Shown: positions 2 to 20,202 of the stretch, piece by piece
Position numbering within the stretch: the first letter of the stretch is position 1
How the letters are laid out: each line of letters begins with the position of its first letter
DNA from: Methylocella silvestris
Lineage (GTDB): Bacteria; Pseudomonadota; Alphaproteobacteria; Rhizobiales; Beijerinckiaceae
DNA length: 64,000 nt
Direction: 5' to 3'
Assembly (NCBI RefSeq): GCF_002891535.1
Contig: NZ_PDZR01000015.1
Span: forward strand, 1-64,000
Position numbers and translations under genes: made by a program
The notes under the pieces: generated by a model
What the model was told of the DNA's origin: nothing
What the model saw: the letters and a program-made list of their open reading frames with translations, nothing else
The model's database searches: none

Positions 2-340
2 GGCGGGGTTGGGCGGGCGGCCGCTTCAGCCGCCGCCGCGCCCGTGCGGCGTGCCGCCGCCCAAGCCGGCAGTTCCATGCGGGAGAGCTTCGCCGCCGGC
101 GCCCGGTCCAGTTTCGCCGCAACCGGCGGCTCATCGACCGGAGGGACGGTCGGCGGCAATTCACCAGGCGCGCCCGCGGCGCCCACGGGCGGATCGGAGG
201 GTTCCGGCCCACCGGCCTGGACCCAGCGCATGAAGCGCAACCAGTCGATGGTCCACGGGGCACAAACCGCCGCGCAGGTCCTCAGGTCCGGCGACAGCCA
301 TGGCGGCGGCCATTCCGTCGATCTCTCTGGAGGAGAATAA
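2..340 (+). CDS. trbL: TrbL, P-type conjugal transfer membrane protein (3' fragment, cut by window edge)
   Basis: Only the last 112 codons are present; the frame is open to the left edge. TrbL is the polytopic inner-membrane channel component of P-type type IV secretion systems, equivalent to VirB6. The visible part is the soluble tail: an Ala/Gly/Ser/Pro-rich linker followed by a basic segment with PAWTQRMKR and a Gly/His-rich end, which is the typical look of TrbL C-termini. The stop codon is one base before the trbF start codon, and the trbF ribosome-binding site lies inside this gene, so the two are translated together. The assignment rests on composition plus the trbF-trbG-trbI neighbours. 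Confidence 0.75.
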   Translation, partial: GGVGRAAASAAAAPVRRAAAQAGSSMRESFAAGARSSFAATGGSSTGGTVGGNSPGAPAAPTGGSEGSGPPAWTQRMKRNQSMVHGAQTAAQVLRSGDSHGGGHSVDLSGGE

Positions 341-341
341 G

Positions 342-1031
342 ATGGCGCTGTTTCGCCGCCCCACGGTTCGCTTCGGCCGGACGCCCGAGCCTGAGACCCC
401 ATATCAGCGCGCCGCCCAGGTCTGGGACGACCGCATCGGCTCGGCCCGGGTGCAGGCCAAGAACTGGCGGCTGATGGCCTTCGGTTCGCTGGCGCTCTCC
501 ATGGGCCTCGCCGGCGGCCTCGTCTGGCAGTCGACCCACGGCAGCATCGTCCCCTGGGTTGTGCAGGTCGACAAGCTCGGCCAGGCGCAGGCTGTCGCCC
601 CCGCCGCCGCCGACTACGCGCCAAGCGACCCGCAAATCGCCTGGTATCTCGCCCACTTTGTCCAGATGGTCCGCGCTCTGCCGGCCGATCCGATCATCGT
701 GCGGCAGAACTGGCTGCAGGCCTACGACTTCACCACCACCTCGGGCTCCCAGGCGCTCAACGACTACGCCCGCGCGAACGACCCCTTCGCCAAGCTCGGC
801 AAACAGCAGATCGCCATCGACGTCTCGAGCGTGATCCGCGCCTCGCCATCGAGCTTCCGGGTCGAATGGGTCGAGCATCGCTATCAGGACGGCGCGCTCG
901 CCGACAACACCCGTTGGACCGCGATCCTCACCATCGCGATCCAGACGCCGACCTCCGCCGACGTGCTCCGCAAGAACCCGCTTGGCATCTACGTCACCGC
1001 AATCAACTGGTCGAAGGAGCTGGGACAATGA
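342..1031 (+). CDS. trbF: TrbF, VirB8-like conjugal transfer protein
   Basis: A 229-residue bitopic inner-membrane protein of the mating-pair-formation system. It has a cytoplasmic N-terminus with a basic patch, one membrane segment at about residues 43-62, and a periplasmic VirB8-like domain that helps nucleate the secretion channel. The start at 342 is chosen because GGAGGAGA lies 6-8 bases upstream; an in-frame ATG at 300 would add 14 residues with no clear ribosome-binding site. The TGA stop overlaps a possible upstream ATG of trbG (ATGA). Length and layout match TrbF of alphaproteobacterial elements. Confidence 0.9.
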   Translation: MALFRRPTVRFGRTPEPETPYQRAAQVWDDRIGSARVQAKNWRLMAFGSLALSMGLAGGLVWQSTHGSIVPWVVQVDKLGQAQAVAPAAADYAPSDPQIAWYLAHFVQMVRALPADPIIVRQNWLQAYDFTTTSGSQALNDYARANDPFAKLGKQQIAIDVSSVIRASPSSFRVEWVEHRYQDGALADNTRWTAILTIAIQTPTSADVLRKNPLGIYVTAINWSKELGQ

Positions 1032-1108
1032 CCCCACCGATTTCTAAGGAAGCCGGCGGTCCGGCTTCGCGTTTCTCCGTCATTCAGCAGACCCGGAAGG
1101 GCGCAGAC

Positions 1109-2101
1109 ATGGCTTTCCGTAAAGCCGGCCTCGCGGCTTTGCTGATGTCCTTCACCGCTCTCGGCGGCTGCGCGCACAATTTCATTCCGCCCGACATCAA
1201 CTACGACAGCGCCGTGCCAGCGAAGCTCGCTTCCGATCCGCCGGCGCCCATCAAGATCGTGGAGCTGCCGAAGCCTCTTCCGTTGCCTGGACAACTGAAG
1301 CCGATCGACGGTGGAAAGCAGACACCCGAAGCCGCGGACCCGACCGTGCGCGTCAACCAGGCCAATGCCGCGGCGCGGATCCAGCCGGCGCGCAACGGCT
1401 TCATCAACGCGGTCCAGGTCTATCCGTTTTCGCGCGGCGCGCTATACCAAGTCTATACGGCGCCAGGTCAGATCACCGACATCGCGCTGCAGGAGGGCGA
1501 GCAGCTCGTCGGCTCCGGCCCCGTCGCCGCCGGCGACACGGTGCGCTGGATCATCGGCGATACCGAGAGCGGCGCGGGCGCCACCAAGAAGATCCACATC
1601 CTGGTCAAGCCGACGAGACCGGAACTGCTCACCAATCTGGTAATCAACACCGATCGGCGGACCTACCTCCTCGAACTGCGCTCGACCGAGAAGACCTACA
1701 TGGCCTCCGTCTCCTGGCAGTATCCCGAAGACCAGCTCATCGCGCTTCGGCGGCAGAACCAGGAGGCCGACGCCGCGGCGCCGATCGCGACCGGCGTCGA
1801 TCTCGCGTCAATCAACTTTCGCTATGCGATCCAGGGTGACAATCCGGCCTGGCGGCCGCTGCGCGCCTTCGACGACGGGAAGAAGGTCTACATCGAATTT
1901 CCGAGCGGGATTGCCCAGGGCGAAATGCCGCCGCTGTTCGTCATCGGTCCGGCCGGCGGCTCCGAGTTGGTGAACTACCGGGTCAACCGCAACTACTACA
2001 TTGTCGACCGGCTGTTCCCCGCCGCCGAGTTGCGCCTCGGCGACAAGGACAGCGAGCGGCGAGTGCGCATCGTCCGCACCGACGGAAGGCCCCGGTCATG
2101 A
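1109..2101 (+). CDS. trbG: TrbG, VirB9-like conjugal transfer lipoprotein
   Basis: The outer-membrane-complex component equivalent to VirB9. With the start at 1109 the 330-residue protein begins with a basic residue pair, a hydrophobic stretch and the lipobox ALGGC with Cys21, so it should be lipidated and anchored in the outer membrane. The second half contains the aromatic and charged pattern of the VirB9/CagX beta-sandwich domain. An in-frame ATG at 1028 overlaps the trbF stop as ATGA and has a GGAG nearby; it would put 27 polar residues before the signal peptide. Translation may begin there, but 1109 gives the cleaner export signal. The gene overlaps trbI by ATGA. Confidence 0.88.
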   Translation: MAFRKAGLAALLMSFTALGGCAHNFIPPDINYDSAVPAKLASDPPAPIKIVELPKPLPLPGQLKPIDGGKQTPEAADPTVRVNQANAAARIQPARNGFINAVQVYPFSRGALYQVYTAPGQITDIALQEGEQLVGSGPVAAGDTVRWIIGDTESGAGATKKIHILVKPTRPELLTNLVINTDRRTYLLELRSTEKTYMASVSWQYPEDQLIALRRQNQEADAAAPIATGVDLASINFRYAIQGDNPAWRPLRAFDDGKKVYIEFPSGIAQGEMPPLFVIGPAGGSELVNYRVNRNYYIVDRLFPAAELRLGDKDSERRVRIVRTDGRPRS

Positions 2102-3303
2102 CGGCGGAAGGTCCTGAAGAAAAGCCGCCGTCGCCGACGCCCGTCGTGCCGCCTGATCTGCGGCTTCGGGGCGAGCGGCCGCGCGTCACGCGCTTGTCGC
2201 GCAGGGTGCTGATCGGCCTCGGCGCCGTTTCGGCGCTCGCCGTCGCGGGCGCGCTCGGCTACGCGCTCCAGACTCGCAACGCGACGCAAAGCGGCCCCGA
2301 ACTGCTCTCCACGCAGAATCGTCCCTCCGCCGAGGGCCTCGCCGGATTACCTAGGGACTACACCGGCCTGCCGCGCCTGGCGCCCCCGCTTGGGCCGCCA
2401 CTGCCCGGCGATCTCGGCAAGCCGATCCTCAATGCCGGCGCCGCACCCAACACCGTCGCTCCTGGAACGACGCCCGACCCGGAAGCGCAGCGCCGCGCCC
2501 AAGAGATTGAGGCGGCGCGGCTCAGCCGTCTCTTCGCCCAGACCAATCAGCAGCCTCAGCCGGTCGGGCTCACCGCCCCGGTTGCGGCAGGGACTACGTC
2601 GGGTCCAACGCCAACACCGCCGGTCGACGCCGGCGCCGCGCAGAACATGCAGGACCGCAAGACAGCCTTCCTCAACGCTTCGACGGACAAGCGCACGGTC
2701 AGTCCGGATCGGCTCGACGCCAAGGCCTCCCCTTATGTCGTGCAGGCCGGCACCGTGATCCCCGCCGCGCTCATCACCGGCATCCATTCCGATCTGCCGG
2801 GCCAGATCACCGCCCAGGTGACGGAGGCGGTCTATGACAGCCCAACCGGAAAATATCTTCTGATCCCGCAGGGTGCGAAGCTGATCGGCCAATACGACAG
2901 CTCTGTTGCCTTCGGCCAGAGCCGTGTCCTCCTGGTTTGGACCCGGATCATCATGCCGGACGGCGGCTCGATCGTGCTGGAGCGCCAGCCCGGCGCGGAC
3001 ACGCAGGGCTATGCCGGGCTCGAGGATGAGGTCGACAATCGCTGGGGCATGCTGTTCAAGGCCGCCGTCCTCTCGACTCTGCTCAGCGTGGGCGCGGAGG
3101 CAGGCACGAGCCAGGATGAGAACAACCTTGTTCAGGCGATCCGCAGCGGCGCTTCCAACAGCATCAGCCAGACTGGCCAGCAGATCGTCCAGCGCCAACT
3201 CAACATCCAGCCGACGCTGACGATCCGCCCCGGCTTCCCGGTCCGCGTCATCGTTACGCGTGACCTGGTGCTCGCGCCCTACGGACAGGGAGGGAAACCA
3301 TGA
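2098..3303 (+). CDS. trbI: TrbI, VirB10-like conjugal transfer protein
   Basis: A 401-residue energy-sensing scaffold that spans both membranes of the type IV secretion channel. The protein has a short cytoplasmic Pro/Arg-rich tail, a membrane helix at about residues 37-56, a long Pro/Ala/Thr-rich periplasmic linker to about residue 200, and a C-terminal TrbI/VirB10 beta-barrel domain. Typical strings of that domain include VVQAGTVIPAALITGI and a late segment with WGMLFKAAVLSTLLS. ATGA overlaps at both ends (with trbG and with the following small gene) show a tightly coupled operon. Nothing looks broken. Confidence 0.93.
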   Translation: MTAEGPEEKPPSPTPVVPPDLRLRGERPRVTRLSRRVLIGLGAVSALAVAGALGYALQTRNATQSGPELLSTQNRPSAEGLAGLPRDYTGLPRLAPPLGPPLPGDLGKPILNAGAAPNTVAPGTTPDPEAQRRAQEIEAARLSRLFAQTNQQPQPVGLTAPVAAGTTSGPTPTPPVDAGAAQNMQDRKTAFLNASTDKRTVSPDRLDAKASPYVVQAGTVIPAALITGIHSDLPGQITAQVTEAVYDSPTGKYLLIPQGAKLIGQYDSSVAFGQSRVLLVWTRIIMPDGGSIVLERQPGADTQGYAGLEDEVDNRWGMLFKAAVLSTLLSVGAEAGTSQDENNLVQAIRSGASNSISQTGQQIVQRQLNIQPTLTIRPGFPVRVIVTRDLVLAPYGQGGKP

Positions 3304-6620: not shown

Positions 6621-6917
6621 TTACTTGTGTACGATCACCTGCAGGCGAAGGACCTTGGTCTCGGCAAACAGATCGTCTGCCCGCTCGACAAACTCCTGCC
6701 CGGGAGGGCCGCTCATATGCGCTTCGCCAGCAGCTTCGTCGACGAAGGTGTCGAACACGCGATAGACGCCCGGCTCTCCTTCGACCTTCGAGCCGTGCCA
6801 GGTCAGGGTTCCCGCCTCGTCCTTCACCAGCGACGCTTCTTTTGCGAGAAACGCCTCCACTTCTGCTTCTTTGCCGGGCTTGGCCTTCATCTCGATCAGG
6901 AATGCAAACTTAGCCAT
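6621..6917 (-). CDS. Antibiotic biosynthesis monooxygenase (ABM) domain protein, putative quinol monooxygenase
   Basis: A 98-residue single-domain protein of the dimeric alpha-beta barrel ABM family, whose members (such as YgiN) act on quinols or other aromatics without a cofactor. The characteristic pattern is the opening beta strand, KPGKEAEVEAFL, the central TWHGSKVEG, and VYRVFDTFVDEAA before the last helix. A ribosome-binding site AGGAG precedes the ATG. About 51 of its first 70 residues are the same as in the N-terminal part of the fusion protein at 11268-11978, so the two are duplicates. The stretch just upstream still contains the remnant of an OYE gene end. Confidence 0.85.
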   Translation of the reverse strand: MAKFAFLIEMKAKPGKEAEVEAFLAKEASLVKDEAGTLTWHGSKVEGEPGVYRVFDTFVDEAAGEAHMSGPPGQEFVERADDLFAETKVLRLQVIVHK

Positions 6918-7017: not shown

Positions 7018-7722
7018 TTAAGAGCGTCTGCTTGCCAGCTGATCCAGGACCGGGAACATCAGCGAGGGCTCGGGGCGGCGGGTATAATCGCCATTCACCT
7101 CGGCGTAGACGATCGTTCGGTCCTGCGCGATGACGTAGCGGGCACTCATCGGCAGGGTCCAGCTGTCCTCGCCATTGAAGATTGGCAGGTCGGCGCCGAG
7201 CGTCCTGTGAGCGACGCGCAGATACTCCGGCAGCGTCCAGCGCAGGTTGAACTGCGAGGCGACTTCGCCAGCGTGATCGCCCAAAATCGGGAAGCCGAGC
7301 CCGTTCTGCCGCTGGGACTTGCGGCTGTTGGGCGCCAGCTGCTGGGAGATCGCGACCAGGCTCGCACCGCGCGCCTCGATCTGCGGGCGGGCCGCCTCGA
7401 GCGCGGTCAGCTCGTAATTGCAGTACGGGCACCAGACGCCGCGATAGAAGGTCGCCACCAGGGGTCCTTTTGCGAGCAGCGCCTCGGACGAAACCGGATT
7501 GCCGTCCGGGTCGGGGAGGGTGAACGCCGGCGCAACGTCGCCGACCTTCAGCGCGCGAGCCGGCGCGCCCGACGCGATCAGCTCGTCGACCGAACGATGC
7601 AGGGCTTCGACTGCCGCCGGGGGGGCAAGTCGGGTATCGAATTCGACCTTGAAGGCATCGAGTTTGCCTTGCAGCGGCAAATCGGACTGCAAGATATGGG
7701 CGAAGGTTTCCTGGAAATTCAT
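7018..7722 (-). CDS. Peroxiredoxin-like (AhpC/TSA family) protein, copy 1
   Basis: A 234-residue thioredoxin-fold protein. After a helical N-terminal 60 residues comes GDVAPAFTLPDPDGNPVS, the standard peroxiredoxin opening, and then TFYRGVWCPYC with Cys98 and Cys101. Cys98 takes the place of the peroxidatic cysteine, and the CxxC resembles a resolving pair, as in the peroxiredoxin-like family of proteobacteria. It should reduce peroxides or act as a thiol oxidoreductase in the cytoplasm. The coding region except the last four codons lies inside a perfect 751-bp repeat shared with 16249-16999; this copy ends in SRRS. It is divergent from a LysR gene across 123 bases that contain a perfect palindrome. 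Confidence 0.9.
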   Translation of the reverse strand: MNFQETFAHILQSDLPLQGKLDAFKVEFDTRLAPPAAVEALHRSVDELIASGAPARALKVGDVAPAFTLPDPDGNPVSSEALLAKGPLVATFYRGVWCPYCNYELTALEAARPQIEARGASLVAISQQLAPNSRKSQRQNGLGFPILGDHAGEVASQFNLRWTLPEYLRVAHRTLGADLPIFNGEDSWTLPMSARYVIAQDRTIVYAEVNGDYTRRPEPSLMFPVLDQLASRRS

Positions 7723-7781
7723 CGGGCGTCTCCTTGGCGGCTCAGCATCAGTGCTGCCGTGACGTTCAAATGATCCATTCT
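7031..7781. repeat. 751-bp perfect direct repeat, left copy
   Basis: By line-by-line reading these bases are the same as 16249-16999 in the same orientation (offset 9218). The repeat covers the peroxiredoxin gene from four codons before its stop to 59 bases before its start codon. Both borders are abrupt: unrelated bases follow on each side. No inverted ends or target-site duplication are seen, so this does not look like an insertion sequence. Confidence 0.92.
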
Positions 7782-7815
7782 AAGAAATTGCAGTAGAACG
7801 GCTAAGGCGATATAA

Positions 7816-7836
7816 CCTATTCAAATATGGAATAGG
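7816..7836. promoter_or_regulatory. Perfect palindrome, likely LysR operator
   Basis: CCTATTC, seven spacer bases, then GAATAGG: a perfect 7-bp inverted repeat containing the ATTC-N7-GAAT form of the T-N11-A LysR box. It ends nine bases before the start codon of the LysR gene and lies between that gene and the divergent peroxiredoxin gene. This suggests autoregulation and control of the divergent gene. The palindrome is outside the 751-bp repeat, so peroxiredoxin copy 2 lacks it. Confidence 0.7.
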
Positions 7837-7845
7837 CGGTGTTGG

Positions 7846-8733
7846 ATGGATCGATTGCATGCGATGGAAGTGTTTGTTCGCGTCGTTGAGAGTGGCTCCT
7901 TCTCCGCCGCCGCCCGCGATTTGCGGATTGGCCAACCCAATGTGTCGAAATTGGTCGCGGCGATGGAGGAGCGCCTTCAGGTGCGGCTTCTGGTCCGCAC
8001 AACGCGCCAACTTCATCCGACCGAAGCTGGCCAGGCCTTCTACGAGCGGGCGCGCCGCACCCTCGCGGAAGCCGATGAGGCGGAGACCGCCGCGCGCGGA
8101 TTGGGCAAAGGGCTCGATGGACGGCTGCGCGTCAGCGCGCCCGTCACGTTCGCGAGACTGCATGTCATTCCAAAGATCGGCGGGTTCCTGGACGCGCATC
8201 CAAATCTTGGTGTCGATTTCGTCCTCGACGATCGCTTCGTTGATTTGATGGGCGAGAACGTAGACGTCGCGCTGCGTGGGGGAGAGCTATCGGATTCGAG
8301 CCTCACCGCGCGAAAACTTGCCACGTGCGAGAGATTGGTCGTTGCGAGCCCTACATACCTCGCACGGATGGGCACTCCGTCCACCCCGGATGACCTGCTC
8401 GAGCACACCGCGCTTGTCTACACGCAGGGGCTGATCGCGGAGGAATGGCGCTTTCGTCGCGCGAGTGAGAATACGTCCGTCCGCATCCCCACGCGGCTGT
8501 CGTTCAGCGCGGCCGAGGGCGTTCGGGAGGCGGTCATTGCCGGCCTTGGCCTCGCGATCAGCACGCGGTGGGTCATGCAGCCGGAGCTTGCGAGCGGGAG
8601 CGTGGTCCCGGTGCTGACCGATTGGAAGCTTCCCGACGCTGACCTATGGGCCTTATTTCCGTCTGGGAGGCTGCCGACGGCGAAGGCGCGCGCGTTCGTG
8701 AGCTGGTTCGAAGAGATTTTCTCGAAGACGTAG
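7846..8733 (+). CDS. LysR family transcriptional regulator
   Basis: A 295-residue regulator of the large group of LysR proteins that begin MDRLxAMEVFVRVVESGSF. The helix-turn-helix (residues about 15-40) contains SAAARDLRIGQPNVSK; the effector domain follows from about residue 90 with VSAPVTFARLHVIP and VDVALRGGEL, usual for this group. It is divergent from peroxiredoxin copy 1 and has a perfect palindrome just upstream, so it probably controls the leftward peroxiredoxin, ABM, hydrolase and GST genes in response to an electrophile or quinone. The inducer is inferred only from the cargo. Confidence 0.93.
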   Translation: MDRLHAMEVFVRVVESGSFSAAARDLRIGQPNVSKLVAAMEERLQVRLLVRTTRQLHPTEAGQAFYERARRTLAEADEAETAARGLGKGLDGRLRVSAPVTFARLHVIPKIGGFLDAHPNLGVDFVLDDRFVDLMGENVDVALRGGELSDSSLTARKLATCERLVVASPTYLARMGTPSTPDDLLEHTALVYTQGLIAEEWRFRRASENTSVRIPTRLSFSAAEGVREAVIAGLGLAISTRWVMQPELASGSVVPVLTDWKLPDADLWALFPSGRLPTAKARAFVSWFEEIFSKT

Positions 8734-11267: not shown

Positions 11268-11978
11268 TCAGCCTCTCACAAACGCTCGGACGCTCGCCAT
11301 ATAGCTCTCGCCGATGGCGACCTCGCCGCCGGCGCGCAGGCGAACGACCCACTTTCCGGAGCGACCGCGACCGACCGCCACAACGCTTCGTTTCGCCACC
11401 AGGGCGGAGCGGTGAACCCTCAGGAAGGCCGCCGCGTCGAGCTCGCTTTCGAGCTGGGAAAGCGTCGAATGAAGCAGATAGGAGGAACTCCCTAAATGCA
11501 GCCGCATATAGTCGCCTTCCGCCGAGACGTAATCGATCCGATCGACGTCGATGCGGACCATGTCGCCGCCGTCGCGTACCCAGAACTCGGATCGAGGCTT
11601 GGTTCTTGAAAGCGAGGGCGCGCCTTCAGACTCTTGCACCCGATCGAGGGCCTGTCGTAGCCGGTCAAGGGTGACCGGCATCAACAGATAGTCAACTTCC
11701 TCACGAGCGAACGTTTGCACCGCGAACCGCTCGTGCGCCGTGGTGGAGACGATGCTCGGCGCGAGCTGACGGTTCAAATGGGCATCACGGGCGGCTTCGT
11801 CGACGAACGTGTCGAACACCCGATAGACCCCCGTTTCCCCTTCAACCCTTGTCGCATGCCACGTCAGGATTCCAGGTTTGTCTTTTACGAGCAGCGCTTC
11901 TCTCGCGAGAAACGCCTCGACCTCTGCTTCCTTTCCAGGTTTGGCCGTCATCTCGACCATCGATGCAAACCGAGCCAT
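11268..11978 (-). CDS. Chimeric protein: ABM (quinol monooxygenase-like) domain fused to the end of a LytTR response regulator
   Basis: A 236-residue product. Residues 1-72 are an ABM domain, about 73% the same as the first 70 residues of the protein at 6621-6917, but its last 25 residues are missing. Residues about 75-115 are the tail of a receiver domain (STTAHERFAVQTFAREEVDYLLMPVT); the phospho-accepting Asp lies in the lost part, and the conserved Lys of the KP pair is Met100. Residues about 130-236 are a complete LytTR DNA-binding domain, with DRIDYVSAEGDYMRLHLG and FLRVHRSALVAKRSV. The ATG follows AAAGGAGGAAGGAG. The fusion may be a working regulator with a small-molecule-binding front, or a deletion product. 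No partner kinase is near. Confidence 0.85.
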   Translation of the reverse strand: MARFASMVEMTAKPGKEAEVEAFLAREALLVKDKPGILTWHATRVEGETGVYRVFDTFVDEAARDAHLNRQLAPSIVSTTAHERFAVQTFAREEVDYLLMPVTLDRLRQALDRVQESEGAPSLSRTKPRSEFWVRDGGDMVRIDVDRIDYVSAEGDYMRLHLGSSSYLLHSTLSQLESELDAAAFLRVHRSALVAKRSVVAVGRGRSGKWVVRLRAGGEVAIGESYMASVRAFVRG

Positions 11979-12034
11979 CTCCTTCCTCCTTTCGATGCGT
12001 TGCACACACGGTCGTGCGCGGCGCCAACTTGCTT

Positions 12035-13138
12035 TCACGTCGCCAGCTCAGTTTCCTTGACGTCGGCGATCGGCCCAAGGATCGCCGGATCGAACGCGTT
12101 GAGAGCGTTCCGATCGGACAGGCGCCTGGGCAGGTCTGGGTTCGCCAGGGCACCCCGCCCTATGGTGAGGATATCGGCACCTTCGTTCAGCGCGGCCGTC
12201 GCCCGCTCAATGTCGTGCAGACTGCCGTTGGCAAGGATCACCGCCTTGGGTGCATAGCGTTTGGCGAGACGCATCAAGGAGGGACCGCCCTTAGCGAACG
12301 CTGGCTGCCATGCCTCGAACTCGGTCACATGGATGAAATCGGCGCCGGCATCGGCCAGGCTGCCGAAGATGATCTCGGCATCGCGCTCCGCGCCCGCCCA
12401 TTTGTGATGATAGTCATTCACCTTGGCTTGCGACAGACGGACGCCGACCGGCACCTTGGCACCCACCCGCGCACGCACCGCCTTGAGCGTTTCAAGGATC
12501 AAGCGCACCCGGTTCTCTGTGGCGCCGCCCCACTGATCCGTTCTGGCGTTGGCGTACTCGGTCAAAAACTGGTCGAGCAGATATCCATTGGCACCGTGGA
12601 TCTCGACGGCGTCAAAGCCGGCGACTTCGATCGCGCGCCCCGCAGACTCGGCAAAGCCGTTGATTGCGTCGGCGATCTGATCCTCCTTCATCGCGGACGG
12701 CAGAACGTAGCGATCCTTGCCGTGATAGAACGTCATCTGTTCGCCCTTCGGCTGGACGGGCGACGGCCCTACGGTGCTGTCGCGAAATCGATTGTGCTGG
12801 CTGATAGCGCCGGCATGCATGAGCTGGGCGATGGCGAGTGTACCGTGCGCCTTAATGCCTCTGACGACCGGCGTCCAAGCACTGGCCTGCGTCTGGTCAG
12901 TCATACCGGGCTGATGGACATAGCCCTGCGAAAATGCCTGATCGGTGTATATGCCTTCGGTGATGACCGTCCCGAAGCCACCCTGTGCGAAACGCTCATA
13001 GTAGCGGGTCATCCTTTCGGTTGCTCGGCCATCTTCAGTCGCCGAGATGCGCGTCATCGGCGCGACCGAGAAGCGATTTTTCACGGTATGGCCGTTTATA
13101 ACCATCGGTGCAAAAAGGGCGCGAGTATCGATGTCCAT
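12035..13138 (-). CDS. NADH:flavin oxidoreductase, old yellow enzyme family
   Basis: A 367-residue FMN-dependent TIM-barrel ene-reductase. Signature elements are LFAPMVINGHTVKNRFSVAPMTR at the first strand, QLMHAGAIS, and GFDAVEIHGANGYLLDQFL, which carries residues that contact the flavin and substrate, ending with the phosphate-binding region ILANGS...IGRGALANPDLP. Such enzymes reduce activated C=C bonds of quinones, maleimides, enals or nitro compounds using NAD(P)H. The ATG at 13138 follows GGAGG; a frame 20 codons longer upstream has no support. It lies between a YghU-type transferase and the ABM-LytTR gene, all on one strand, in agreement with electrophile clearance. Confidence 0.92.
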   Translation of the reverse strand: MDIDTRALFAPMVINGHTVKNRFSVAPMTRISATEDGRATERMTRYYERFAQGGFGTVITEGIYTDQAFSQGYVHQPGMTDQTQASAWTPVVRGIKAHGTLAIAQLMHAGAISQHNRFRDSTVGPSPVQPKGEQMTFYHGKDRYVLPSAMKEDQIADAINGFAESAGRAIEVAGFDAVEIHGANGYLLDQFLTEYANARTDQWGGATENRVRLILETLKAVRARVGAKVPVGVRLSQAKVNDYHHKWAGAERDAEIIFGSLADAGADFIHVTEFEAWQPAFAKGGPSLMRLAKRYAPKAVILANGSLHDIERATAALNEGADILTIGRGALANPDLPRRLSDRNALNAFDPAILGPIADVKETELAT

Positions 13139-13194
13139 CGTACAAACCTCCGGAGGCGCCAAATCTTGGCGAAGCTCAGATCCACTCAATCGCT

Positions 13195-14070
13195 TCAAGG
13201 AACGTGAAACTGGTTCTGAGTTAGTCGGTCGAAGTCGCTTGCATCGTGGCGTTCGAGAAGTTGCTCGGACGGCTCCCCAAACAAACTGTTGACCATCCGC
13301 CCACGCTTGACCGCGGGGCGATCGGCGATGGCTTTTACCCAGCGCTGGACATTGGCATATTCGTCGAGTGACAGAAATTCAGCCGCGTCCCCATAGAACC
13401 GGCCGAGCGCGACATTCCCATACCAAGACCACACTGCGATATCGGCGATCGAATATTCATCGCCCGCCAGATAGGGCGTCTCCGCCAGGCGCCGATCGAG
13501 AACATCGTATTGGCGCTTCGCCTCCATCGCAAAGCGATCAATGGCATACTCGATCTTGGTTGGCGCATAGGCATAGAAATGCCCGAAGCCACCCCCGAGG
13601 TAGGGCGCACTGCCCATCTGCCAGAACAGCCAGGACAAGGTTTCCGCCCTCTTGGCAGGATCAGTCGGCAGGAGGGCCGCGAATTTCTCGGCCAGATAGG
13701 TCAAGATCGCGCCAGATTCGAATACGCGTATCGGGTCTTTGGCCGAGCGGTCGATCAGGGCGGGGATCTTGGAGTTGGGATTGACCTTGACGAAGCCGCT
13801 GCCGAATTGGTCTCCCTGTCCAATTCTGATCAGCCAAGCATCATATTCGGCGCCCTTATGGCCAAGCTCAAGCAGTTCCTCGAGAAAAATGGTCACCTTT
13901 TGACCATTTGGCGTGGCGAGAGAATAAAGTTGGAGCGAGTGCTTGCCGACCGGCAAGTCCTTTTCATGTGTTGACCCAGCAGTGGGCCGATTGATGGCGG
14001 CGAAGTCTCCACCATTAGGCTTGTTCCACACCCAGATTTTGGGCGGAGTATAATTGATTGCTTCGGACAT
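13195..14070 (-). CDS. yghU: YghU-like glutathione S-transferase / disulfide-bond oxidoreductase
   Basis: A 291-residue protein of the Nu-class GST group (E. coli YghU is of similar length). The extended N-terminus YTPPKIWVWNKPNGGDFAAI and the glutathione-binding stretch PVGKHSLQLYSLATPNGQKVTI are diagnostic; VNPNSKIPALID is the cis-proline loop and YSIADIAVWSW the helical-domain motif. These enzymes bind two glutathione molecules and reduce disulfides or organic hydroperoxides. The ATG at 14070 follows GAGGAGA. The gene precedes the OYE gene by 56 bases on the same strand. A truncated copy of its front third is at 4425-4844. Confidence 0.9.
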   Translation of the reverse strand: MSEAINYTPPKIWVWNKPNGGDFAAINRPTAGSTHEKDLPVGKHSLQLYSLATPNGQKVTIFLEELLELGHKGAEYDAWLIRIGQGDQFGSGFVKVNPNSKIPALIDRSAKDPIRVFESGAILTYLAEKFAALLPTDPAKRAETLSWLFWQMGSAPYLGGGFGHFYAYAPTKIEYAIDRFAMEAKRQYDVLDRRLAETPYLAGDEYSIADIAVWSWYGNVALGRFYGDAAEFLSLDEYANVQRWVKAIADRPAVKRGRMVNSLFGEPSEQLLERHDASDFDRLTQNQFHVP

Positions 14071-14169
14071 AGTTATCTCCTCAGGCCCTGGGCCACGTTG
14101 AGCAATTGGATAAGATTTGATGCGACCGAGGAACGGATGCGAACTGGAGTGCCAATGCGGCACCCCGGA

Positions 14170-14817
14170 TCACCCATCAAAGGCGGATGTGCTTCTGACA
14201 AATGCCGGACGTGTTCGGACCTGAGAAAACCAGCGTGAAAGCGCGGGAAGTCGGTCCCAGGGCAGCTCGTCGGCGACCGCGGATACGATCGTCACAGCTG
14301 CGATATCGGCGATTGAAAAAGCGTCGCCGGCGATAAACGTGCTTGCCGAAGCGAAGCGTTCCGCATCTTCGATGGCAGCCATGGAGCGATCGGACAGCAC
14401 CTTTGCGGCGACGGCATCACCTTGAAGCTTTAGAAAAAATCCAGCGTGGTTCGGCACGATTACGTCCGTGACGAAATAGGTAAATCGCTCAAGCACACGG
14501 GCCTGGGCCCGCGCATCGCCTGCGTGCAGCAGTTTTTCCGGTGCCTTAGATCCGGCATAGAGCACGATCGCATTGGACTGAGTCAAAACGAATGGATCGT
14601 CCCGCTGCGAAAGATCGATCAGGGTCGGCACCTTTCCGGTCGGATTCAGGCGCCTGTATTCGACCTCGCCCTCGCCGGGCGCCCTTGGGTCGTAATGGCG
14701 CACGACGTAGGGCAATTCGGCTTCCTCCAACGCCATCGCAGCCCGAATGCAATTGCCCGTCTTCATCCCGTAGAGAACGAATGGCGATGAATGGTCGAAT
14801 TCTTCTAGAACGCTCAC
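14170..14817 (-). CDS. Glutathione S-transferase family protein
   Basis: A 215-residue cytoplasmic transferase. The first domain contains FVLYGMKTGNCIRAAMALEE, the LNPTGKVPTLID cis-proline loop and LTQSNAIVLYAG, where Ser-Asn would contact the gamma-glutamyl group. The second domain has FIAGDAFSIADIAAVTIV. The sequence is not close to the other GSTs here and the substrate cannot be told. The start is GTG with an AAGGA upstream. The gene lies 100 bases before the YghU-like gene and 53 bases after the hydroquinone reductase gene, all leftwards, so the genes may be one transcript. Confidence 0.87.
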   Translation of the reverse strand: MSVLEEFDHSSPFVLYGMKTGNCIRAAMALEEAELPYVVRHYDPRAPGEGEVEYRRLNPTGKVPTLIDLSQRDDPFVLTQSNAIVLYAGSKAPEKLLHAGDARAQARVLERFTYFVTDVIVPNHAGFFLKLQGDAVAAKVLSDRSMAAIEDAERFASASTFIAGDAFSIADIAAVTIVSAVADELPWDRLPALSRWFSQVRTRPAFVRSTSAFDG

Positions 14818-14869
14818 TGTGGTAATCCTTAAAGGAAAAATGAAGACTGCTTTGTATGTAAAGTATATT

Positions 14870-15913
14870 CTACGCCGCCGTTACAGATTCCTTACGAACT
14901 GCAACAACGCCATTGGTCTGGGCGTGGTTTTGACTTTGGGTTTTGGGTGACGCAACCGCATCAAGTCCCGCAAGATGGGGCCCGGTGGGTACAATTCCAG
15001 GCGGGTTGAGCGCCTTTATGGAATAATAGCCCCGCTTGATGTGGTCGATATTCACGGTTTCGCGCACGCCCGGTATGGTCAGGATCCGGGCGAGGTAGGC
15101 TGTCAGTTCAGGATAGTCGGCAACTCGGCGAAGATTGCACTTGAACAGACCGTAATAGGCCGCGTCAAAACGCACCAACGTCACGAACAAGCGCAAGTCG
15201 GTCTCCGTCAAGGTGTCTCCGAACAGGTAAGCCCCGCGCCGGCTAAAGCGCTCTTCGAGCTCATCTAGCGCCAAGAACACATCAGCGAACGCTTCTTCGT
15301 ATGCAACCTGGGTGGTGGCGAAGCCGGCACGGTAGACGCCATGGTTCAGCCGCGAATAGAGGTGGTCGTTCAATGCATCGATGTCTGCGCGAAGCGCCTC
15401 TGGGTAGAGGTCAAATTCGCCTCCGGCTAACTTGCCGAAACCGGAGTTGATCATCCGCATGATGTCCGCGGATTCGTTGTTAACGATCGTTTGGCGCTGC
15501 TTGTCCCAAAGCACCGGCACGGTCGCCCGACCCGTAAAATGAGGATCAACGTCAGTGTAGATTTCATGCAGGTAAGTGGCGCCGCTAAGCTCATCGCGGT
15601 GGGCCCCTGGGTAGTCGCCAAAGCGCCACCCCTCATCGGTCAGGACCGGTTCGACGACGCTCATCGAAATTACGGATTCAAGCTGCTTGAGCTTTCGGGC
15701 GATGACCGCGCGTGACGCCCATGGGCAGGTCAGCGCCACGTACAAGTGATAGCGACCGGCTTCGGCCCTGAAGCCATCACGTCCCGTCGGACCTGCCGCG
15801 CCATCTAGAGTAACCCAGTGGCGGAAACTGGAAATTTGACGAACATAGCCGCCCTTGGCGTCAGTGGCCTCCACGGGTTGCCATTTTGCCATCCATTTCC
15901 CGTCGACCAACAT
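14870..15913 (-). CDS. Glutathionyl-hydroquinone reductase (Xi-class glutathione transferase)
   Basis: A 347-residue enzyme of the YqjG/PcpF group, which removes glutathione from glutathionyl-hydroquinones and so rescues quinones trapped as conjugates. The catalytic motif CPWA is present with Cys63 in LYVALTCPWASRAV. Typical later strings are VPVLWDKQRQTIVNNESADI, the long helical domain, and YPELTAYLARILTIPGV followed by HIKRGYY. The last 40 residues extend past the usual end of the family and are polar and low in structure. Its presence with OYE, ABM and several GSTs is the best argument that the island handles quinones. Confidence 0.93.
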   Translation of the reverse strand: MLVDGKWMAKWQPVEATDAKGGYVRQISSFRHWVTLDGAAGPTGRDGFRAEAGRYHLYVALTCPWASRAVIARKLKQLESVISMSVVEPVLTDEGWRFGDYPGAHRDELSGATYLHEIYTDVDPHFTGRATVPVLWDKQRQTIVNNESADIMRMINSGFGKLAGGEFDLYPEALRADIDALNDHLYSRLNHGVYRAGFATTQVAYEEAFADVFLALDELEERFSRRGAYLFGDTLTETDLRLFVTLVRFDAAYYGLFKCNLRRVADYPELTAYLARILTIPGVRETVNIDHIKRGYYSIKALNPPGIVPTGPHLAGLDAVASPKTQSQNHAQTNGVVAVRKESVTAA

Positions 15914-16232
15914 TGTTAAATCCTTTTTGAAATTGCTTTTCGGAAACTCAGCTTCATCTGATCGACCAGTGAACCTCGACGGAGTTGAGTGTGACGAAAT
16001 CGAAGACGTTGATCATGGAAAGTACTTTTCCCATCCGGTCGATGCGGAAGGCCCGTAACTCTCAATGAAGAGACGTTGCGCCTTCCCCGGCTCGGACCTT
16101 CCGGATCTGCTGCCGAACCGATTTGCGCGCTGCGCGTGCGGCAACGGTGGTGTGCGACGGTGCTCCCCCATCGCCCCGCCCCACATTCAGTGCGCTAGTG
16201 CGCCGAAGATGAGGGCGGAACGGAATAGAGAG
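15914..16232. other. Gene-free stretch between hydroquinone reductase and peroxiredoxin copy 2
   Basis: About 320 bases with no convincing gene. Short frames on both strands lack ribosome-binding sites. It must hold the promoter of the leftward hydroquinone reductase-GST-YghU-OYE series, but I see no strong -35/-10 pair and no copy of the CCTATTC palindrome. Confidence 0.4.
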
Positions 16233-16940
16233 TCAGGCGGCGCGCTTACTTGCCAGCTGATCCAGGACCGGGAACATCAGCGAGGGCTCGGGGCGGCGGG
16301 TATAATCGCCATTCACCTCGGCGTAGACGATCGTTCGGTCCTGCGCGATGACGTAGCGGGCACTCATCGGCAGGGTCCAGCTGTCCTCGCCATTGAAGAT
16401 TGGCAGGTCGGCGCCGAGCGTCCTGTGAGCGACGCGCAGATACTCCGGCAGCGTCCAGCGCAGGTTGAACTGCGAGGCGACTTCGCCAGCGTGATCGCCC
16501 AAAATCGGGAAGCCGAGCCCGTTCTGCCGCTGGGACTTGCGGCTGTTGGGCGCCAGCTGCTGGGAGATCGCGACCAGGCTCGCACCGCGCGCCTCGATCT
16601 GCGGGCGGGCCGCCTCGAGCGCGGTCAGCTCGTAATTGCAGTACGGGCACCAGACGCCGCGATAGAAGGTCGCCACCAGGGGTCCTTTTGCGAGCAGCGC
16701 CTCGGACGAAACCGGATTGCCGTCCGGGTCGGGGAGGGTGAACGCCGGCGCAACGTCGCCGACCTTCAGCGCGCGAGCCGGCGCGCCCGACGCGATCAGC
16801 TCGTCGACCGAACGATGCAGGGCTTCGACTGCCGCCGGGGGGGCAAGTCGGGTATCGAATTCGACCTTGAAGGCATCGAGTTTGCCTTGCAGCGGCAAAT
16901 CGGACTGCAAGATATGGGCGAAGGTTTCCTGGAAATTCAT
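16233..16940 (-). CDS. Peroxiredoxin-like (AhpC/TSA family) protein, copy 2
   Basis: The protein (235 residues) matches copy 1 at 7018-7722 up to the last residues, which are SKRAA instead of SRRS because the repeat ends inside the stop region. The WCPYC active-site motif (Cys98, Cys101) is intact. Unlike copy 1 it has no LysR gene or CCTATTC palindrome upstream, so it must be expressed from another promoter or be silent. An 11-base palindrome TGATAATATCA lies about 80 bases upstream of its start codon. The lack of even one silent difference points to a very recent duplication or gene conversion. Confidence 0.9.
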   Translation of the reverse strand: MNFQETFAHILQSDLPLQGKLDAFKVEFDTRLAPPAAVEALHRSVDELIASGAPARALKVGDVAPAFTLPDPDGNPVSSEALLAKGPLVATFYRGVWCPYCNYELTALEAARPQIEARGASLVAISQQLAPNSRKSQRQNGLGFPILGDHAGEVASQFNLRWTLPEYLRVAHRTLGADLPIFNGEDSWTLPMSARYVIAQDRTIVYAEVNGDYTRRPEPSLMFPVLDQLASKRAA

Positions 16941-16999
16941 CGGGCGTCTCCTTGGCGGCTCAGCATCAGTGCTGCCGTGACGTTCAAATGATCCATTCT
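16249..16999. repeat. 751-bp perfect direct repeat, right copy
   Basis: Same bases and orientation as 7031-7781. The 9.2-kb interval between the copies carries the LysR gene, IS remnant, gcvH, GNAT, the ABM-LytTR fusion, OYE, two GSTs and the hydroquinone reductase; recombination between the copies would delete all of these and leave one peroxiredoxin gene. Confidence 0.92.
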
Positions 17000-17542
17000 C
17001 GATTCTTACAGAAGAGAGCTCGTGATAATATCATATATGCCGTTTTGGAATGTATGGGCGTGAATTTATGGAGCTGCCGGGATCACCAGAATTAAGCCGA
17101 TTACGGATCCAAGGCCGCCGGCCACCCGGTGAAACCCGGCCGCTTAGCCCCAGAGCGCGAAGTTTTCTCGGGCCAATGGAGGGCAAGGGTCGATCTATGC
17201 TGCTAGGCGGGGGATGGCCCGCTCGACCAATCGCAAGAATCGGGTGTTGCGAGCCCCCACAACAGAATGGTCGTCAGAGGCCGACCCTGGGCGTTGCGTC
17301 TATCGCCTACCACCGAGAGGACAGTTGCGCGGGCAGGATTTGAACTTGCCCGGCGAGCGTCCAGTATCGGGATCGGGAACCGCCTTGGCGGCAGCTGGCG
17401 GTAGTTGCTGGCCATCCAAGTGGCCTCGGAACCGGCCTCATAGGCACGCCAGAGCACGCCCAAGCCGCACCCAGCTTTCGCCGGACTGCTTACATAGTGC
17501 TTACATTTTTTTGATAACCAGAATGTAAGCGCCAAAAGCGAA
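17000..17542. other. Island edge without clear genes
   Basis: About 540 bases between the end of the duplication and the tRNA-Gly terminator. Short frames are present on both strands but none has a good start site or a recognisable family. A palindrome TGATAATATCA is at 17023-17033. The stretch abuts the tRNA 3' side, where an integrase gene or attachment site would be expected, yet neither is recognisable; deletion of an integration module is possible. Confidence 0.45.
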
Positions 17543-17562
17543 GGGCCGCCTCGCGGCGGCCC
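17543..17562 (-). terminator. Intrinsic terminator of tRNA-Gly
   Basis: An 8-bp perfect stem GGGCCGCC/GGCGGCCC with a four-base loop, 33 bases past the tRNA 3' end on the minus strand, followed in that direction by a T-rich run (TTCGCTTTT). Confidence 0.75.
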
Positions 17563-17576
17563 TGTCATAACGCTCT

Positions 17577-17595
17577 AATTTTCTTGAAGAAAATT
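17577..17595. repeat. AT-rich palindrome next to the tRNA 3' end
   Basis: AATTTTCTT, one base, AAGAAAATT: a 9-bp inverted repeat directly touching the CCA end of tRNA-Gly. It could help 3'-end processing or mark the edge of an attachment site. Confidence 0.45.
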
Positions 17596-17670
17596 TGGAG
17601 CGGGCGAAGGGATTCGAACCCTCGACCCCAACCTTGGCAAGGTTGTGCTCTACCCCTGAGCTACACCCGC
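17596..17670 (-). tRNA. tRNA-Gly (anticodon GCC)
   Basis: A full 75-nucleotide tRNA read on the minus strand, starting GCGGGTGTAGCTC and ending in an encoded CCA. The acceptor stem pairs with one G-U wobble. The D-arm has GTAGCTCAGGGGTAGAGCAC, the anticodon loop is CTTGCCAAG, and the T-arm contains GGTTCGAATCC. The 3' end points to the accessory island on the left, the orientation expected of an integration target. Confidence 0.97.
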
Positions 17671-18021
17671 ATCCATCCGGCGGCTGCGGAGCCGACGGTT
17701 TCGGCTATATGGCGCAAACGAATTGCGATTGCAACAGCCGGTTTCGCCGAATTCGGTTGGCGGAGCCTGGCGCATTCCACGCGCCGCCGCCCGCGTAAGG
17801 GCTTCGACCGACCGGGCGCGGCGGCGTCTTGTGAAAATGCGTCCTGCCCGGACGCGCGGCGGCGCGGCAAAAGCTTGTCCCATTCCCGATGCGTCCGAAG
17901 CGCTCGGCCCGCGCTCTTCCAGGATGATACGCCCCCGCGCCCGCCTTGCGGGAAGCGCCGCGGCCTGCCATTGACGGACCGTCCGGATCGCCCCGCACAC
18001 GCGCGCGATCGTTTAATTCGC
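17671..18021. other. Spacer between tRNA-Gly and the alpha-operon promoter
   Basis: About 350 GC-rich bases carrying the leftward tRNA promoter and nothing else I can support. Several long overlapping frames on both strands have no ribosome-binding sites and no motifs and are taken as GC-driven. The usual upstream neighbours of rpsM (secY, adk) are not here. Confidence 0.5.
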
Positions 18022-18050
18022 TTGACGGGTTGGCGCAGATCGGCTATCGC
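18022..18050 (+). promoter_or_regulatory. Candidate housekeeping promoter of the alpha operon
   Basis: CTTGACG as a -35 region (TTGACG at 18022-18027), a 17-base spacer and TATCGC as a weak -10 at 18045-18050. The start of transcription would be near 18057, giving a leader of about 150 bases before rpsM. CTTGAC is the usual alphaproteobacterial -35 core. Confidence 0.55.
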
Positions 18051-18208
18051 CCCATCTTCAGCCTGAAACGCATGTTTCCGGGGACGCTTGCTGCGTCTCC
18101 GATTGAGTTAGGCGCCCCGCATGGGCCGGCCTCCACCGGACGCGGGCATTTTAATTTATTTCGCCGCTGCGCGCCTTGCCGCCGTCGCGGCCGATATGGA
18201 GACAGGTT

Positions 18209-18577
18209 TTGGCACGTATAGCTGGCGTCAATATTCCGACCAATAAGCGCGTCGTTATCGCGCTTCAATATATCCACGGCATCGGCTCCAAGAAAGCCGA
18301 AGAAATCTGCGCCAAGGTGAATATTCCCGACGCGCGTCGCGTGTCGGAGCTCACCGACGCCGAGGTTTTGCAGATCCGTGAGACCATCGACCGCGATTAT
18401 CTCGTTGAGGGCGATCTGCGCCGCGAAGTCGCGATCAACATCAAGCGCCTGATGGACCTTGGCTGCTACCGGGGCCTCCGGCACCGTCGCCAGCTGCCCG
18501 TTCGCGGCCAGCGTACGCATACCAATGCGCGCACCCGCAAGGGCAAGGCGAAGCCGATCGCCGGCAAGAAGAAGTAG
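18209..18577 (+). CDS. rpsM: 30S ribosomal protein S13
   Basis: S13 sits in the head of the small subunit and contacts the P-site tRNA and the 50S subunit. The 122-residue product starts [20 protein letters not shown] after a TTG start and ends in the basic tail [20 protein letters not shown], both standard. The TTG at 18209 is preferred because the family always starts just before ARIAGV; no ATG is available there, and GGAGA lies about 8 bases upstream. It is the first gene of the alpha operon rpsM-rpsK-rpoA-rplQ. Confidence 0.97.
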
Positions 18578-18654
18578 CCGCGCAACTGGCGAACCCGTTT
18601 CAATAAAGCTCCCGAGCGCCTGGCATTACGGGCGCGCCCGAAGGATTTGGACAT

Positions 18655-19046
<392 letters not shown>

Positions 19047-19185
19047 GGCTCCCGGTCGGCCTGCCGCCATCCGGGGCGCTCTGTTTCTTACTCGATCTGC
19101 GCCGCGCCATGGTCCGCCGACCGGACCCTCCGCGCGTCGAAGTCCGGGCGCCATCGCGCGCCGCACCGTCAGAAAGGCTCTGTTC

Positions 19186-20202
19186 GTGATTCAAAAAAAC
19201 TGGCAAGAGCTCACCAAACCCAACAAGCTTGAAGTGATTTCGGGCGACGATCCGAAGCGTTTTGCGACCATCGTCGCCGGGCCGCTCGAACTCGGCTTCG
19301 GGCTCACGCTCGGCAATTCCCTGCGTCGCATCCTTCTGTCGTCGCTGCAGGGCGCGGCGATCACCTCCGTCCATATCGACGGGGTGCTGCATGAATTCTC
19401 CTCGATTCCCGGCGTGCGCGAGGACGTGACCGACATCGTCCTCAACATCAAGGACATCGCGATCAAGATGCCGGGCGACGGGCCGAAGCGGCTCGTCCTC
19501 AAGAAGCAGGGGCCTGGCAAGGTCACTGCCGGCGACATCCAGACCAGCGGCGACATTTCCATCCTGAACCCCGGCCTCGTGATCTGCACGCTCGACGAGG
19601 GCGCCGAAATCCGCATGGAGTTCACGGTTCACGCTGGCAAGGGCTATGTCGCGGCCGACCGCAACCGGGCCGAGGACGCGCCGATCGGGCTGATCCCGAT
19701 CGACAGCCTCTACTCGCCGGTCAAGAAAGTCAGCTATCGCGTCGAGAACACGCGCGAGGGCCAGAACCTCGATCTCGACAAGCTGACGCTCCAGGTTGAG
19801 ACGAATGGCGCGCTGAGCCCGGAAGACGCCGTCGCTTTCGCCGCCCGCATCTTGCAGGATCAGCTCAACGTCTTCGTCAATTTCGAGGAGCCGCGCCGCG
19901 TCGAGGCGACGCCGTCGATCCCGGAGCTCGCCTTCAATCCGGCGCTCTTGAAGAAGGTCGACGAACTCGAGCTTTCGGTGCGTTCGGCGAACTGCCTGAA
20001 GAACGACAACATCGTCTACATCGGCGACCTCATCCAGAAGAGCGAAGGCGAAATGCTGCGCACGCCGAATTTCGGCCGCAAATCCTTGAACGAAATCAAG
20101 GAAGTGCTCGCGCAGATGGGCCTCCATCTCGGTATGGAGGTGAATGGCTGGCCGCCGGACAATATCGACGACCTCGCCAAGCGTTTCGAGGAACATTACT
20201 GA
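19186..20202 (+). CDS. rpoA: DNA-directed RNA polymerase alpha subunit
   Basis: A 338-residue subunit that nucleates RNA polymerase assembly and contacts UP elements and activators. The N-terminal assembly domain contains [20 protein letters not shown], the C-terminal domain (from about residue 250) contains [16 protein letters not shown] and [14 protein letters not shown], the residues that touch DNA and activators. The start is GTG at 19186, at the family-typical position before IQKNWQEL. Normal length, no oddities. Confidence 0.98.

Follow-up and report, generated by a model that had tools for sequence, protein, structure and literature searches.

We identified a gene that joins the start of an ABM domain protein, the tail of a response-regulator receiver and a complete LytTR DNA-binding domain in one reading frame within the window, a 64,000-nucleotide stretch of the Methylocella silvestris genome. 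A second fusion with the identical joint is encoded by Sphingomonas sp. PAMC 26621 (locus L017). The reading we prefer, with a probability of roughly 0.5, is that the gene encodes a maintained, kinase-independent LytTR regulator for which the ABM half would serve as a platform.

The fusion gene (11268..11978, minus strand; orthologue L017:8001-8711) is a stop-free open reading frame of 236 codons running from 11978 to 11268, and the first-pass annotation had its coordinates, strand and frame right. The strong ribosome-binding site it reported is also present: the stretch AAAGGAGGAAGGAG (11979..11992, minus strand) abuts the ATG directly. Residues 1–72 (11763..11978, minus strand) correspond to the first ~72 of the 98 residues of an ABM protein, as judged by Pfam and by alignment with stand-alone ABM genes. 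Residues 73–118 (11625..11762, minus strand) are a weakly constrained receiver remnant delimited by alignment with intact response regulators of two other loci (L018 and L019), and residues 132–236 (11271..11585, minus strand) form the LytTR domain. Both domains named in the annotation pass their Pfam cut-offs, ABM across residues 5–70 (29.7 bits; cut-off 23.1) and LytTR across residues 140–232 (68.7 bits; cut-off 22.6), and the C-terminal LytTR domain is complete. The placement of ABM in the first 72 residues is correct as to the family but not as to its extent, since the domain stops ~26 residues short of the end of the 98-residue stand-alone protein. A receiver tail is likewise present, but at ~46 of ~120 receiver residues in the alignment with L018 and L019 it exceeds the "last quarter" initially described; we take its elements to be beta4-alpha4-beta5-alpha5. 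The front half of the receiver is missing from both fusions, and the same alignment confirms that the phospho-accepting Asp is absent from both, as are the acidic residues. The reported replacement of the conserved receiver Lys by Met applies to the window copy, whereas the Sphingomonas copy retains Lys.

A search of other genomes for the same ABM plus LytTR order returned one, that of PAMC 26621, so the concern that no other genome carries the fusion no longer stands. The strain came from an Arctic lichen (PMC6471386). Its fusion is also 236 aa long, is 78% identical to the window protein over residues 1–236, follows an old yellow enzyme (OYE) gene as in the window, and is above the Pfam cut-offs for both domains (ABM 24.4 bits, cut-off 23.1; LytTR 69.7 bits). 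The locus was one of four (L017–L020) found by exact peptide patterns over genome contigs, an approach that reaches close relatives only. The two hosts belong to different orders in the NCBI taxonomy, the window's family to Hyphomicrobiales and PAMC 26621 to Sphingomonadales. An accident or assembly join was considered and rejected because the joint is common to another species at 126 nucleotide differences.

No third fusion was found in protein searches of genome samples, in which matches to the full 1–236 came only from the window's genome and PAMC 26621. These sets (60 and 15 genomes at 1e-3; 397 at 1e-15; 295 and 385 at 1e-20; 397 at 1e-36; 397 at 1e-30) overlap and are samples only, and at the strict thresholds diverged or independently formed fusions could have escaped notice. 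The fusion protein matched 360 plasmid records, two of which span 80% or more of the query, and these (H4, 29.6% identity; H26, 25.4%) are annotated LytTR proteins. When the OYE-fusion stretch was compared with distant plasmid DNA, only the OYE part was covered among the matches listed (20 of 136), and viral scans for relatives found none. Among the listed titles and abstract openings from the open PMC literature, none dealt with an ABM-LytTR fusion. An acidic-pocket or Asp-site receiver motif was evident in 56 of the 58 non-fusion LytTR-matching rows (duplicates included); the two rows without one, L015 and L016, are long frames.

Both parents also occur in unfused form. A stand-alone ABM gene in the window (6621..6917, minus strand; Pfam and alignment) is a paralogue of the fusion's N-terminal part, and the kinship noticed in the first-pass annotation amounts to 60% amino acid identity over residues 1–94. 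At the DNA level identity is 76% over 71 codons, with homology spanning from upstream of the ATG to approximately codon 70. Homology to intact regulators begins at codon 73. Sphingomonas sp. PAMC 26605 (L018) and a Caulobacterales MAG (L019) match fusion residues 73–236 only (79% and 77%, respectively), and in both an intact 241-aa response regulator sits behind a LytS-type kinase (Pfam). The fusion LytTR is 82–86% identical to these regulators; the remaining locus, L020, encodes a distant one (27%). In both L018 and L019 an amidohydrolase gene (Pfam) follows the LytS/LytTR pair (L018:8631-10205, L019:8188-10206), a gene that the intact regulator may control.

The fused ABM halves form a cluster supported at 0.996 in a five-sequence tree. 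Given this grouping and the shared joint, the simplest reading is that the fusion arose in a single event. Another genome of the window's family (G167) contains two loci (L021 and L035) in which an OYE gene, 83–84% identical at OYE, is directly followed by a stand-alone ABM gene, an arrangement that likely represents the unfused order. Inspection by eye further shows that the stand-alone ABM genes in the window and L017 are preceded by a short sequence similar to the 3' end of OYE.

Comparison of the window gene with L017, at a dS of ~0.44, gave a dN/dS of 0.31 (0.21–0.45) for the whole fusion. Constraint between the two fusions is strong on LytTR (0.16, 0.08–0.28; 90% identical), moderate on the ABM part (0.33, 0.16–0.71; 80% identical) and barely evident on the receiver remnant (0.47, 0.22–0.98; 55% identical), with the linker at 0.69 (0.17–2.76). 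The intact L018 and L019 regulators share 85% identity over the corresponding receiver part and 88% over LytTR. Neighboring genes compared between the window and L017 have values of 0.16 (OYE), 0.08 (LysR), 0.20 (GcvH) and 0.06 (Prx). A neutral simulation of simple design (uniform sites, one hit per site, 5000 runs) produced as few amino acid changes as observed in 0/5000 runs for the whole gene, 0/5000 for LytTR and 1/5000 for ABM, compared to 232/5000 for the remnant and 3431/5000 for the short linker, and a stop codon arose in 4810/5000 runs. Neutral drift of the whole gene was rejected in this simulation (0/5000 runs). At the sequence level, the hybrid gene thus shows signs of upkeep by selection.

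The ABM half appears to be held less tightly than its unfused relatives. Over the same 72 codons, stand-alone ABM orthologues have a dN/dS of 0.12 (0.03–0.26) and the fused ones 0.35 (0.16–0.68), which is suggestive of weaker constraint in the fusion, although the intervals overlap. Of 15 positions that do not vary across 14 ABM sequences, 12 are retained in the window copy (E34, T37 and G70 are lost) and 13 in L017 (E34 and H67 are lost).

The window's genome yielded neither a second LytTR gene nor a LytS-type kinase (PF06580, 0 matches). The constrained LytTR domain, the lost phospho-Asp and this kinase-less genome together argue for DNA binding that would be independent of phosphorylation. 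PAMC 26621 encodes three PF06580 kinases, none of them tied to the fusion, along with three other LytTR genes, and kinase freedom in that strain is argued from the lost Asp only.

Modeling of the fused structure succeeded in part. A first model reached a mean pLDDT of just 52.5; a second, monomeric model is confident for LytTR only, which resembles DNA-bound AgrA, but not for residues 70–107, which fall under a pLDDT of 50. Alignments of several ABM structures with the model extend as far as residues 100–102, inside the remnant, a low-confidence region in which the model has no strand.

The OYE gene (367 aa; 12035..13138, minus strand; Pfam Oxidored_FMN, start set by comparison) lies 56 bp upstream of the fusion on the same strand, and its product is 85% identical to the L017 copy; judging from spacing and strand, the two genes are probably cotranscribed. 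The window's cassette encodes OYE, GSTs, peroxiredoxins, LysR and a hydrolase (Pfam), contents that would fit a response to electrophile or redox stress. Among these, a peroxiredoxin (7018-7722, minus strand) and LysR (7846-8733, plus strand), both assigned by Pfam, lie in a region (7018..8733) with 87% DNA identity to L017. Cassette pieces are 81–87% identical in DNA between the window and PAMC 26621, the ABM paralogue matches are 75–77% identical and one 82-base piece is 73% identical, whereas two stretches from the ribosomal-protein region reach 74% and 69% identity between the two genomes. We infer that the cassette likely moved laterally, which would explain why it is more alike than the ribosomal-protein region.

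Several further features of this neighborhood were observed. ABM gene copies are repeated in the cassette (L017:10517-10813, L017:13099-13395 and window 6621-6917), and near-identical peroxiredoxin genes (7018-7722 and 16233-16940), with a 300-nt repeat that is 99% identical, flank the OYE-fusion stretch. The conjugation genes VirB8, CagX and TrbI occupy window positions 300-3300, and a tRNA-Gly lies at 17596-17670. A second copy of the tRNA-Gly 3' end is found beside a phage-type integrase (Pfam Phage_integrase) on another contig (C19) of the window's genome (L093). An integrative conjugative element at tRNA-Gly may therefore carry the cassette as cargo; the two contigs are unlinked in the assembly. 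In both genomes the cassette is near the ribosomal-protein region, at ~5 kb in the window (11268-19865) and 10.5 kb in PAMC 26621 (contig C48, L081–L082), with opposite relative orientation; a tRNA search of L080–L082 found none. Alignment of the OYE and two-component-pair promoter regions, read by eye, exposed no shared operator, and a promoter scan gave results at chance level only.

LytS/LytTR systems (L018 and L019; Escherichia coli BtsSR and YpdAB) share the LytTR domain and receiver end with the fusion but possess the phospho-Asp-bearing front half of the receiver, which the fusion lacks just as the window's genome lacks a PF06580 kinase. Stand-alone ABM proteins (window 6621-6917; NE2512, 2pd1; ArqI/PA0709) are homologous or model-alike over the first ~70 residues but keep the last ~26, which in the fusion are replaced, with a DNA-binding domain attached. 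A barrel coupled to a DNA-binding domain has an analogy in Lrp/AsnC regulators, whose effector domain, like ABM, falls in the dimeric alpha+beta barrel fold class, but these differ from the fusion in having an HTH rather than LytTR and another domain order. LytTR Regulatory Systems (LRS; PMC6193735) have a receiver-less LytTR regulator like the fusion, but one that accompanies a membrane protein. The first-pass annotation knew of no described system with this design, which is too strong a statement given that one-component LytTR regulators, RcoM and CoxC, exist. Both have, like the fusion, an N-terminal non-receiver domain and a C-terminal LytTR domain (PMC11347149); the CO-responsive N-terminus is a heme sensor in RcoM and an MHYT domain in CoxC, whereas the fusion carries a truncated ABM and a receiver remnant. 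The fusion resembles these regulators in that LytTR is complete and the phospho-acceptor receiver is gone; any role for a ligand (a quinone, a reactive aldehyde or another electrophile) is putative. ABM proteins can join electrophile responses: ArqI bears a glyoxal-derived modification on an arginine (PMC12274486), and the same paper puts the number of Pfam architectures containing ABM at 315.

ABM proteins are dimers. The sequences show, or strongly imply, that an ABM gene behind OYE was fused, in what is most simply a single event, with the 3' half of the gene for a LytTR response regulator, and that the joint took away the phosphorylation site. The hybrid then diverged in two lineages with the LytTR half, and less strongly the ABM half, under purifying selection. 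In the reading we prefer, the main role of the ABM half would be to provide a platform for folding and dimerization, allowing LytTR to bind repeats without a kinase, and the fusion would control the detoxification cassette or itself. Possible but doubtful is a simpler scenario of promoter and start-codon capture, in which LytTR would be the sole working part, uncontrolled, and ABM would supply start signals and a soluble leader. The truncated and seemingly less constrained ABM half and the stronger constraint on LytTR agree with such a capture, as does the truncated CoxC, whose LytTR domain, freed from its partner, still represses its promoter (PMC11347149); a mere leader is harder to reconcile with an ABM half as conserved as only 1/5000 neutral runs allowed and with retention of 12/15 and 13/15 invariant positions. 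The one-component sensor envisaged in the first-pass annotation, with the ABM barrel binding a quinone or electrophile and switching LytTR at the OYE, GST and peroxiredoxin genes, seems unlikely to us. It draws on the gene content of the cassette, on the modification of ArqI (PMC12274486) and on the precedent of one-component LytTR sensors (PMC11347149), but the quinone-sensing view is weakened because ABM lacks its last ~26 residues and is seemingly less constrained than stand-alone ABM (with overlapping intervals). The loss of H67 in L017 and of G70 in the window copy from an already incomplete barrel, and the aligned promoter regions in which no shared operator was seen, also count against it.

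Slightly more speculative is a scenario in which a mobile detoxification cassette gained a one-component regulator of its own when the phosphorylated half of a LytTR response regulator was exchanged for the cassette's ABM protein. The remnant alpha4-beta5 may here re-close the barrel, standing in for the missing last helix and strand of ABM. It is very improbable that the hybrid is functionless and decaying. A near-neutral remnant (232/5000) and an occurrence in two genomes only would be expected of decay, but the frame has stayed open in two lineages at a dS of ~0.44, where stops were expected in 4810/5000 neutral runs, and the whole-gene dN/dS is 0.31. Least probable of all is a decoy that occupies operators of intact LytTR response regulators: the 82–86% LytTR identity to the L018/L019 regulators and the three further LytTR genes of PAMC 26621 would suit such a role, but the window's genome offers no other LytTR gene for it to antagonize.

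To our knowledge, it is rare that a two-component regulator turned one-component can be studied alongside both of its unfused parents and two diverged products. With parents and products in hand, it can be asked whether swapping a receiver for a dimer-forming enzyme fold frees LytTR from its kinase. These observations also suggest a regulator that travels from one bacterial order to another as part of a detoxification cassette.
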